DNA of 64,000 bases from Vibrio sp. DW001 (GTDB taxonomy: Bacteria; Pseudomonadota; Gammaproteobacteria; Enterobacterales; Vibrionaceae): the NCBI RefSeq assembly GCF_029016285.1, contig NZ_CP091976.1, forward strand, positions 558,001-622,000. The letters are read 5' to 3'. This document shows, one piece after another, positions 54,651-57,172 of this stretch. The translations under genes were made by a program, and so were the position numbers. The first letter of the stretch is position 1. Every line of letters begins with the position of its first letter. The notes beneath the pieces are model-generated. The model had not been told where the DNA came from and made no database searches. It saw nothing but the letters and a program-made list of their open reading frames with translations.

Positions 54651-55661
54651 TCAGAATATATTTAGACCATAAATATCTTTTACATCGCTTAGCACTTCGT
54701 TGGCTTGTGCATTAGCAGCATCTGTCCCCGCGCGTAATATGTTAGCCAGTTCTTGCCTATCTGCTAAGAATGCCTCACGCCTCTGTCGAATAGGCAATAA
54801 TAGTTCTTGGAGGCACTCTTCAAGAATTTTTTTCGTTGTACCATCACCAAGCCCACCCCGCTGATATTGTTCTTTTAAGCTTTGAACATACCCTTGGTCT
54901 TCACAGAAAGCGTCCAAATAAGTAAACACCACGTTTCCTTCTATCTGGCCAGAATCCTCGACCCTCACATGATTCGGATCTGTATACATCGACTTTACCG
55001 CAACACTTATCGCTTTAGGCGTGGAACCTAATGAGATCGTGTTTCCCATTGATTTGGACATTTTATTTTTGCCATCAGCGCTTGGTAACCTTGGCATATG
55101 ACTAAGCAATGGTTCGCACTCAGTAAGGATCGGCCTGTTCGCGAGGCGATTGACCTTTCTAACAATCTCATTCGTCAGCTCAAGCATGGGAAGTTGATCA
55201 TCACCCACGGGAACGGTATCAGCTCGAAACGCCGTGATGTCTGCCGCTTGAGAAATGGGATAGGTAAAGAAACCTGTAGGGATAGATCGACCGAAGCTTT
55301 TGGATTGGATCTCATTTTTTACAGTAGGGTTGCGTTCTAATCGCGCCACAGACACGAGGTTACTATAAAACATCGTAAGCTCTGCTAACGCTGGGATCTT
55401 AGACTGTAGACAAATAGTTGTTTTAGTGGGTTCAATACCCACAGCCAAATAGTCCGCTACTACATTCAAGATATTGCTCGATACTTTTTGAGGATCAAAC
55501 GCATTGTCCGTAAGGCCTTGCATATCGGCGACTAAGATAGTTTGATTGTGATTATGTTGTAATACGACGCGAGGCTTAAGAGAACCAACGTAATGCCCTA
55601 GATGCAAAGCGCCTGTCGCTCTATCACCCGTTAAGATTGTCTTTTTCGATAATATTGTCAT
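54651..55661 (-). CDS. trpS2: tryptophanyl-tRNA synthetase, auxiliary (TrpRS II) type
   Basis: 336 residues, class I synthetase that charges tRNA-Trp. HLGH (20-23) and KMSKS (200-204) are the two ATP signatures. TGDRATGALHLGH, ILVADMQGLTD, SNLVSVARLERNPTVK and PVGDDQLPMLE match the TrpRS II group (Deinococcus TrpRS II, Streptomyces auxiliary enzyme) rather than the housekeeping E. coli form. The site where housekeeping enzymes have DxHAIT is DMQGLT, so a key histidine is glutamine (Q48). Ribosome binding site GGAG is present. A Trp-codon leader peptide lies 112 bases upstream. Confidence 0.93.
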   Translation of the reverse strand: MTILSKKTILTGDRATGALHLGHYVGSLKPRVVLQHNHNQTILVADMQGLTDNAFDPQKVSSNILNVVADYLAVGIEPTKTTICLQSKIPALAELTMFYSNLVSVARLERNPTVKNEIQSKSFGRSIPTGFFTYPISQAADITAFRADTVPVGDDQLPMLELTNEIVRKVNRLANRPILTECEPLLSHMPRLPSADGKNKMSKSMGNTISLGSTPKAISVAVKSMYTDPNHVRVEDSGQIEGNVVFTYLDAFCEDQGYVQSLKEQYQRGGLGDGTTKKILEECLQELLLPIRQRREAFLADRQELANILRAGTDAANAQANEVLSDVKDIYGLNIF

Positions 55662-55728
55662 TTTTTATCTCCAGTTTATGTGCCACCGAAGATAATAAGA
55701 GGGAGAAATGGTTATCGTTTTTGTCCCC

Positions 55729-55860
55729 AGCTACCTTTCGGCGGCTAGTGAACACAATGATTCGACGCCGCTCTAAAAAGAGCGCCACCAATTAATAAGA
55801 TGTGAAGAAACAGTCGTGATTTTAATTTTATTCATAGTCTTTCAAACTATCAGAGCGGCA
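55729..55860 (-). promoter_or_regulatory. putative Trp-responsive leader/attenuator of trpS2
   Basis: On the minus strand, AGAGCGGC (55774-55767, starting within the leader stop codon) can pair with three partners: GCCGCTCT before the leader ATG (55859-55852), GCGCTCT overlapping the tandem Trp codons (55785-55779), or GCCGC downstream (55745-55741). That last segment can instead form a GAAA-loop hairpin AGCCGCC/GGTAGCT (55746-55729). These are mutually exclusive, as in ribosome-mediated attenuators. No T-run follows the last hairpin, so termination may be rho-dependent or control may act on translation. The bases 55862-56176 upstream show nothing else. Confidence 0.6.
55773..55835 (-). CDS. 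leader peptide with tandem Trp codons
   Basis: A 20-codon reading frame, ATG to TAG, too short for normal gene calls. Codons 16 and 17 are TGG TGG, followed by CGC TCT TTT and the stop. The peptide ends NWWRSF. Two adjacent Trp codons at the end of a short upstream frame, just before trpS2, is the arrangement of classic attenuator leaders. The ribosome binding site (GAAAG) is modest. Ribosome stalling at these codons when charged tRNA-Trp is scarce would favour synthetase expression. Confidence 0.65.
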   Translation of the reverse strand: MNKIKITTVSSHLINWWRSF

Positions 55861-56176
55861 CTTAGCTGTCAAAGATAAATAGATCGTCATCTAAACAACT
55901 AAATGTACTCAAGAAAATGAGCGCCTCATTACCAAAATTCGATATCGTCAAAGTACGACAATATTTGAAGCTTACTTTATATCAGTAATCAATTTTACCG
56001 ATTAAAATTTTTTAGTAAAAAGCCATAATTGCAGAGCGAAGTTTAGAATGCTAAACTCCTGCGGAAAATTACTTCGTATAATCCCAATGATATGGTTTGG
56101 GAGTTTCTACCAAGGGCCAATAACTCTTGATTATGAAGTCTGTAACTTTATTTACCACCAATAAAGGTAGAGGCTC

Positions 56177-57172
56177 ATGAACTATTTTAACCTGCCAAAA
56201 ATCGATCTTCACTGTCACCTTGACGGAAGTGTTCGTCCACAAACTATTATTGATCTCGCTAACCAACAAGACTTAAGCTTGCCGAGTAACGACATCAATG
56301 TAATTCGCTCAATGATGATTGCACCTGAAACCTGCCAGAACCTTGACGAGTATTTGATGCGATTTGAACTTCCGCTTTCTGTCATGCAAACTGAATATGG
56401 CATCGAACGTATCGCTTTCGAGGTCTTTGAAGACGCAGCAAAAGAGAACGTAAAGTACTTAGAAGTTCGCTTTGGACCATTACTACACCTTCAGAATGGT
56501 CTTAACCTTGACCAAGTATTACGCAATGCAATTAAAGGCATGAAAAAGGCTGAAGAACAGTATGATATCAAAGGCAATTTCATTCTTTCAGTATTAAGAC
56601 ATATGCCTAAAGATAGAATTAATGAGGTTATTGATGCCGGCGCAAAGTACTTGCATAACGGCGTCATTGCATTCGACATAGCGGGTAGCGAAGTACCAGG
56701 ATTCAGTCATGAGTTCGTGCCTTATGCAAAGTATGCCGAAGACAATGGGTATCGAATTACGATTCATGCGGGTGAGCAAGGTGATGGTCAAAATGTACAC
56801 GATGCCGTCTCACTGTTAAATGCTGAACGTATCGGTCACGGTATTGGTATTAATGCTCACGAAAGTGCCTATAAATTGGTTAAAAACGACGCAGTTGTAC
56901 TGGAAACATGCCCCAGCAGCAATATCCAAACCAAAGCAGTCGATAAACTTAGCAACCACCCGTTAGAAGCTTTCTATAAAGATGGTTTACTCGTTACTAT
57001 AAACACCGATAACCGTACCGTTTCCAATACCACAATGACGGAAGAAGTTCGTAGAGTTATGGAGGAGTTTCAACTACGTCGTGAAGACTATTTTGAAATC
57101 TATAGAGTAAGCGTAGAACGTTCATTCGCCTCCGATTCTGTAAAACAATATTTGTTAACCTTCGCAGAATAA
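56177..57172 (+). CDS. add: adenosine deaminase
   Basis: 331 residues, a zinc hydrolase that converts adenosine to inosine in purine salvage. [14 protein letters not shown] supplies the first metal histidines, [15 protein letters not shown] and ERIGHGIG the catalytic glutamate and histidine, and [12 protein letters not shown] the metal aspartate. Full length, with AGAGG upstream of the ATG. Monocistronic. Confidence 0.95.

Follow-up and report, generated by a model that had tools for sequence, protein, structure and literature searches.

The gene for a second tryptophanyl-tRNA synthetase of Vibrio sp. DW001, trpS2, is preceded by a conserved element that is unmatched in Rfam above threshold and that most likely is an attenuator which senses Trp-tRNA, acts mainly on translation and has a leader peptide read from a predicted leaderless mRNA. 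Judging from sequence and folding models, we would put the probability at roughly 0.7 that a Trp-tRNA-sensing, ribosome-mediated attenuator controls trpS2, in this genome chiefly at the level of translation. Within the window, that is the whole stretch of 64,000 nucleotides that was analysed, trpS2 lies on the minus strand (54651-55661) and encodes a protein of 336 amino acids that matches TIGR00233. The nearest solved chains, at 340 bits, are 1yi8 and 2a4m; 2a4m is named TrpRS II, presumably the enzyme of Deinococcus, and the other TrpRS of the same genome is a paralogue with 30% identity to TrpS2. An Rfam scan of positions 55500-56200 left the trpS2 leader unmatched, the sole match being a purine riboswitch aptamer on the opposite strand (RF00167, 74 bits, 56054-56153, plus strand). 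This riboswitch lies 5' of an adenosine deaminase gene (56177-57172, plus strand), and both are divergent from trpS2.

The leader peptide frame, MNKIKITTVSSHLINWWRSF, comprises 20 codons on the minus strand and reads ATG AAT AAA ... AAT TGG TGG CGC TCT TTT TAG (55835-55773). An earlier note on this DNA had described such a frame with tandem Trp codons at positions 16 and 17, and the sequence bears this out: TGG TGG, the predicted stall site, is found at 55785-55790, and the TAG stop (55775-55773) overlaps the stretch AGAGCGGC (55774-55767). The start of trpS2 follows 111 nt after the leader stop. The residues upstream of the two Trp codons (hereafter WW) and their number vary widely among leaders, with lengths differing by whole codons, while WW is constant, though WW was itself required in the search. 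Divergence is somewhat greater at third codon positions (0.18 versus 0.13 and 0.12 at the other two, 337 pairs), and 160 of 162 leaders have their stop codon 12-18 nt beyond the base that opens the first Trp codon.

How widely is this frame kept? The note had proposed aligning the upstream regions of trpS2 orthologues for a conserved WW frame and covarying stems, and both are found. Among 80 loci kept from named genomes, 66 have at least 60% identity (L004-L067, L069, L079), and 63 of these 66 carry a WW frame at similar distance upstream of trpS2; the remaining three are L007 (237 nt available before the enzyme motif), L060 and L079, whose contig ends within the gene. No WW frame was credited for the 14 named loci of lower identity, apparently mostly Firmicutes but with some proteobacterial metagenome-assembled genomes among them (L080, L082), a long frame in L071 being accepted by the frame test and not credited. 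Searches at E<=1e-60 found trpS2 in 54 of 121 genomes of the family, 49 of 295 of the order, 10 of 369 of the class and 33 of 398 of the phylum; within the genus a full-length match is present in 72 of 196 genomes, as counted by hand from the list, and the housekeeping paralogue is visible in almost all 196. From these searches 169 distinct trpS2 places were fetched (L001 and L084-L251, including five broken or truncated copies, L191 and L248-L251), a set that overlaps in species with the named-genome set. A frame running from ATG through WW to a stop is present at 152 of the 169 places, and at 152 of the 157 with at least 59% identity. It is absent from 12 distant places with at most 54% identity (L163-L171, L188-L190), and five of the 157 closer places are without a WW frame: L115 with a short flank, L157, L158 with a one-Trp frame, L199 and L202. 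A near-identical test on control open reading frames of at least 150 amino acids, taken from 65 loci and the window, with the same codons and stop rule and with distances counted from the frame start instead of the enzyme motif, gave no match among 262 frames, the single match among the 263 tested being a trpS2 fragment. The WW frame upstream of trpS2 thus exceeds chance.

In the phylum search, 9 of 17 further inspected matches have a WW leader, three within Gammaproteobacteria (L266, L267, L285) and six outside the class (L268, L271, L272, L274, L286, L288). Of the rest, L269 has a single Trp codon, as seen by eye, and seven are without (L264, L270, L273, L287, L289-L291); at 55-60% identity, 5 of 14 lack the frame. 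The idea that attenuation logic operates on a gammaproteobacterial trpS2 is thus partly supported: conservation speaks strongly for a WW leader whose stems covary and exclude each other, but this is not one gammaproteobacterial case, since six of the nine leaders lie outside that class. Among five annotated records inspected, the frame is present in Salmonella, on an E. coli plasmid, on a Klebsiella plasmid and in Variovorax, and no leader frame was found within 290 nt in the Acinetobacter record. The leader upstream of the Salmonella orthologue ends RWWLPS. Horizontal transfer of trpS2 together with its leader appears likely from sequence comparison, because the window TrpS2 is 97% identical to that of one congener (L084) and at most 75% identical to those of the remaining listed congeners, while that of Photobacterium sanctipauli reaches 79%.

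Some loci deserve separate mention. In L158 and L269 a single Trp codon replaces WW, and other parts of the element can be recognised by eye. In L060 and L157, which are identical to each other in this region, the leader frame is gone and an E-like stretch, TCTCCGATAGG, persists before trpS2. Broken or truncated trpS2 copies in congeners (L248-L251) retain the WW leader, and two of the genomes concerned, G062 and G090, also have a full copy. trpS2 with its leader is found on the E. coli plasmid pB379_2 near IS26 (L293) and on an IMG/VR contig filed as viral (L284).

Upstream of the leader frame lies what appears to be a sigma-70-type promoter, with the -35 hexamer TTGACA (55867-55872, minus strand) and an extended -10 element, TGA-TAGTTT (55844-55852), that ends 8 nt before the leader ATG. 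This arrangement is conserved. Among 66 of the 67 non-redundant leaders (L230 was left out as it has no ATG in the searched range), 57 carry the pattern TTG-N19..21-TANNNT with its end 5-9 nt ahead of the leader ATG. Measured to the most upstream in-frame ATG, the offset is 6, 7, 8 or 9 nt in 33, 15, 7 and 2 leaders, respectively, and any other offset occurs at most twice. In the 33 leaders with a spacing of 6, T is found at -15 in 88% and G at -14 in 94%, as in extended -10 promoters. The exact pattern was counted since an unconstrained promoter scan of these AT-rich leaders was hardly informative (mean score 5.7 versus 5.5 in shuffled sequences), even if it placed 34 of 66 promoters at 5-9 nt versus 6% in shuffles. 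Moreover, the promoter-adjacent ATG is in frame with TGGTGG and free of intervening stops in 60 of the 60 leaders having such a promoter (67 examined, all pre-selected for possessing some in-frame ATG), at a distance of 30 to 51 nt that is always a multiple of three. A sigma-70-type promoter with its -10 element mostly 6-8 nt before the ATG is therefore a conserved predicted feature of the leader. From this spacing the transcript is predicted to start at the leader ATG or within about 3 nt of it, and since there is no room for a Shine-Dalgarno sequence of the leader between promoter and ATG, the leader is predicted to be translated as a leaderless mRNA.

The promoter bears on the pairing partners of AGAGCGGC, of which the note had listed three. 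Two are retained, CGCTCT (55784-55779) and GCCGC (55745-55741). The third, GCCGCTCT (55859-55852), was rejected as an upstream pairing partner because it sits in the promoter spacer between TTGACA and TAGTTT (55849-55844) and so is not expected in the RNA; the spacer is also without consensus in the alignment.

The RNA can be described by six segments, namely A within the codons for Arg and Ser, B across the stop, C, D, E, and F with the trpS2 Shine-Dalgarno, which form the helices P1 (A:B), P2 (B:C), P3 (C:D), P5 (C:E) and P4 (E:F), all on the minus strand. P1 is the hairpin CGCTCT/AGAGCG (55769-55784). P2 pairs GCGGC of segment B (55767-55771), which is weak alone, with 55745-55741, and its inner strand GAAT (55760-55763) with GTTC (55753-55750). 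P3 is a hairpin with a GAAA loop (55753-55723), the GNRA-loop hairpin that had been expected to compete with the last pairing of AGAGCGGC; it does so through segment C, GCCGCCGAA (55737-55745), which is common to P2, P3 and P5. Two parts lie downstream of the stretch that the note covered and were absent from it: the Shine-Dalgarno hairpin P4, TTATCTTCGGT/ACTGGAGATAA (55695-55665), an 11-bp helix over the trpS2 Shine-Dalgarno GGAGA (55668-55672) that is also found by minimum-energy folding, and the long-range helix P5 between C and segment E, TTCGGTGGC (55682-55690), which acts as a putative anti-sequestor.

Covariation supports these helices to different degrees. In an alignment of 63 leaders (A3), P5 is paired in 91.6% of cells with 68 double-change cells and double changes in 8 of 9 pairs, none of 500 shuffles equalling it on any measure, and pairing drops to 30-46% when P5 is shifted by one column. 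P4 is 89.3% paired with double changes in 7 of 7 pairs, and P1 95.7% paired with double changes in 5 of 9, two of its measures being reached by 1 and 3 of 500 shuffles. For P2 the figures are 93.4% (98% of cells in its outer part) and 7 of 9 pairs with double changes, and here too none of 500 shuffles equals it on any measure, whereas P3 is 74.6% paired and its number of double-change pairs is matched by 26 of 500 shuffles. Parsimony mapping on a trpS2 tree of those 43 of the 63 leaders whose gene is complete counts 12 double changes for P5 (9 pairs), 5 for P4 (6 of 7 pairs), 5 for P1 (6 of 9), 5 for inner P3 (5 of 15) and 4 for P2 (7 of 9); pairs of P5 are broken 29 times and kept via one-sided change 19 times. 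When pairing potential is compared with shuffles independently of any alignment, C:E ranks in the top 5% in 77 of 80 leaders, A:B in 73, E:F in 58 and B:C in 24, several leaders from other classes being outside the top 5% for E:F (P4). Hence P5 and P4 covary well, and P2 is weaker and the least secure helix. The alignment was made with a covariance model (R1), built from 28 leaders, that includes P1, P3 and P4 but not P5 and P2. At E<=0.001 this model detects 63 of the 67 non-redundant leaders, and those it misses (L160, L162, L181, L184) all belong to one family, f25. In the genome of the window R1 finds one site up to E=10, and under strict filters, with f25-type leaders missed by the model, it finds one site each in 16 of 148 order genomes, by coordinates directly before the trpS2 match in all 16.

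How could these helices sense tryptophan? Transcription would start at the leader ATG or few bases from it, and ribosomes would translate the leader as a leaderless mRNA. As long as Trp-tRNA is plentiful, a ribosome would reach the stop codon and, as this codon lies so close behind the first Trp codon in nearly all leaders, should therefore cover segment B, so that C would fold with D into P3, whereupon E would pair with the trpS2 Shine-Dalgarno in P4 and the gene would be off. An untranslated leader would be off as well, because P1 would hide B. If Trp-tRNA is short, the ribosome would stall on WW, cover A and leave B free. Free B could then capture C in P2 and keep P3 from forming, and once E has been transcribed it could displace B from C, entering via the free 3' end of C, to give P5 and leave the Shine-Dalgarno open.

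Static folding of the window leader keeps the Shine-Dalgarno paired with or without a stalled ribosome, and the off state lies lowest in energy, by a median of 3 kcal/mol; the switch would therefore rest on kinetics. If A is treated as covered, as it would be by a ribosome occupying the first Trp codon, and C has been transcribed, P2 differs from the whole early ensemble by at most 0.3 kcal/mol in 57 of 63 leaders. By median stability, P3 exceeds P2 by 3.5 kcal/mol, P5 exceeds P2 by 1.7 kcal/mol once E is out, and P3 with P4 exceeds P5 by 3.0 kcal/mol at full length. Median path barriers, obtained for 59 of 63 leaders, are 5.3 kcal/mol from P2 to P5, 12.3 from P2 to P3 and 18.6 from P3 to P5. 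In a coarse co-transcriptional model of 55 of 63 leaders the free fraction of the Shine-Dalgarno is 0.77 with the ribosome stalled and 0.28 with the ribosome at the stop (0.64 and 0.24 for the window leader). The stalled state is ahead by more than 0.5, as expected, in 29 of the 55 leaders and the stop state by more than 0.5 in 1, and in the stop state 15 of 55 are still more than half open. All these kinetic estimates assume direct paths at 37 C, without ribosome or polymerase dynamics, and the rate constant of the coarse model is arbitrary. For 25 of the 63 leaders, hand-picked with the output of this model known, the rate constant was varied from 1e5 to 1e7 with an optional 2 s relaxation, giving six settings. 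Mean free Shine-Dalgarno was 0.76-0.90 in the stall state versus 0.07-0.59 in the stop state, 12 to 20 of the 25, depending on the setting, had a stall value more than 0.3 above the stop value, and the reverse occurred in 3, 1, 1, 1, 0 and 0 leaders; L004 and L099 went the wrong way at five of six settings, and L057 was open at all. The coarse kinetic model thus yields the expected sign in most leaders, not in all.

The opposite sign, with B:C blocking C:E so that stalling turns the gene off, was considered and is less likely given the low barrier from B:C to C:E, which is below that from P3 to C:E in 55 of 59 leaders, the exceptions (L200, L204, L206, L207) being without C:E. These four belong to a sub-clade (L200, L203-L207) without P5. 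In all six of its leaders E is predicted to pair with D alongside P2 while the ribosome is stalled and the Shine-Dalgarno has yet to be transcribed; at full length, four of the six minimum-energy folds return to P4. From this modelling the anti-sequestor strand seems to have changed from C to D in the sub-clade, and since E:D is compatible with P2, it would support the sign under which P2 goes with an open Shine-Dalgarno.

Does the switch act on translation or on transcription? The window has both the helix that covers the Shine-Dalgarno (P4) and the alternative fold that frees it (P5), as expected of a translational attenuator. It also shares with classical attenuators the tandem cognate codons near the leader end and the mutual exclusion of P2 and P3 via C, and this competition would fit classical transcription attenuation with P3 as terminator, P2 as antiterminator and P4/P5 as secondary. 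Such a reading draws further on T-rich tails: in 24 of 80 leaders five or more of the 9 nt that follow the strongest hairpin are T (L065 and L288 alone reach 8 of 9, L033 and L037 reach 7 of 9), a rough count as the scored hairpin differs from P3 in part of the leaders and the stem absorbs the T-run in others, e.g. L160. We nevertheless consider it unlikely: the other 56 leaders have fewer than 5 T, P4 and P5 are well supported yet superfluous to a terminator, and in the window AAAACGATAACC follows the GAAA-loop hairpin without a U-run, the tail AACCATTTC holding 3 T of 9. The note had already remarked on the missing U-run and had left rho or translation as the mode, which fits the window, where the best conserved output is the Shine-Dalgarno helix with its anti-helix. 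P5 itself, followed by the U-rich stretch of many Vibrio-type leaders, was also tried as a terminator and rejected, as the stretch is absent from the window and from other clades. U-tracts are clade-specific, and because P4/P5 at the Shine-Dalgarno is the widely kept output, translation is likely the main layer, to which termination appears to have been added in some clades.

Alternatively, the leader frame might be translated while the switch answers to something other than Trp, be it general ribosome stalling or a peptide acting in trans like Sinorhizobium peTrpL. Action in trans of a Trp leader peptide has been published, according to the accessible part of the source (PMC7298713), but here WW is the constant part of a peptide otherwise free to vary in length and residues, albeit in a search that required WW, and we regard this explanation as very improbable. 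That the element is a conserved but inactive remnant or reflects another constraint, such as a DNA site or an overlapping RNA, is hardly credible given that five helices show compensatory changes and that leaders differ in length by whole codons, even though the leader is lost in L157, L199 and L202 and truncated trpS2 copies retain theirs.

We thus favour the Trp-tRNA-sensing translational attenuator. A more elaborate version of it can be held tentatively, at somewhat less than even odds: a stalled ribosome on a leaderless WW leader would start a toehold strand-displacement relay, in which B:C gives C to E and opens the trpS2 Shine-Dalgarno, and the element would be a widespread proteobacterial one whose ancestral form was tuned to termination or to translation by lineage, with the anti-sequestor moved from C to D in one sub-clade.

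How does the element relate to known systems? In translational attenuators of the ermC/catA type a drug-stalled ribosome refolds the leader and frees the Shine-Dalgarno, as proposed here for the trpS2 leader, whereas the predicted signal here is missing charged tRNA and not a drug, the peptide would be leaderless and the strand is predicted to be handed over from P2 to P5. The enterobacterial trp operon leader (RF00513) has a WW leader peptide and a 1:2, 2:3 and 3:4 logic of alternative stems, similar to the trpS2 leader, which in the window differs by having no U-run. No RF00513 match over the gathering threshold was obtained at the window trpS2 leader or in ten other leaders scanned, one of which (L288, 172-253, minus strand) has a below-threshold match (25.6 of 41 bits, E=0.27), and the genome of the window has its own RF00513 site away from trpS2. 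The pheST operon of E. coli, likewise a gammaproteobacterial aminoacyl-tRNA synthetase locus under leader-peptide attenuation, differs in using Phe codons and a terminator. In Firmicutes the same enzyme family and presumably the same signal are served by the T-box, a tRNA-binding RNA: T-boxes were found at five of eight Firmicutes loci of trpS2 orthologues scanned (L076 and L077 over threshold; L068, L070 and L073 below, E<1e-9), and no WW leader was found at those loci. No T-box (RF00230) was matched within 55500-56200 of the window. T-box and WW leader before trpS2 orthologues are a case of convergent control.

Similar in gene context are the Streptomyces systems, as far as the accessible parts of the sources describe them. 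A leader peptide and a predicted attenuator precede trpS genes in S. avermitilis (trpS2; PMC1262725) and S. lividans (trpL2; PMC8079986), and leaderless leader peptides are reported in the latter species for trpL1 and leuL2 (PMC8079986). TrpL2 of S. lividans apparently contains a single Trp, in contrast to the WW, the proteobacterial distribution and the Shine-Dalgarno switch described here. The trpL RNA of Sinorhizobium meliloti begins with the ATG of its leader frame, as predicted for the trpS2 leader, whereas according to the same partly accessible source it controls trpE(G) and uses a transcription terminator (PMC7298713). A literature search, outside which most subscription journals lay, found no earlier description of the element in the accessible texts. 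What would be new is a variant of ribosome-mediated attenuation that reaches other proteobacterial classes and Salmonella.

Reported expression of Salmonella trpS2 (STM4508, assumed to be the orthologue with the RWWLPS leader) follows that of trp genes: according to the accessible parts of two reports, it rises twofold in biofilm along with them, and in a tolC mutant it is lowered together with mtr and trpABCDE (PMC2805695, PMC12506092), which agrees with the favoured model. Pseudoalteromonas luteoviolacea produces indolmycin, and its cluster seems, from the part of the source available, to include a TrpRS gene. The element would be a further Trp-responsive control element for a spare TrpRS across Proteobacteria, including Salmonella, and it predicts that the spare enzyme is made at Trp-tRNA shortage, as an inhibitor like indolmycin from marine Pseudoalteromonas would cause. 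It would also be a natural case for studying leaderless initiation jointly with ribosome stalling and RNA strand displacement.
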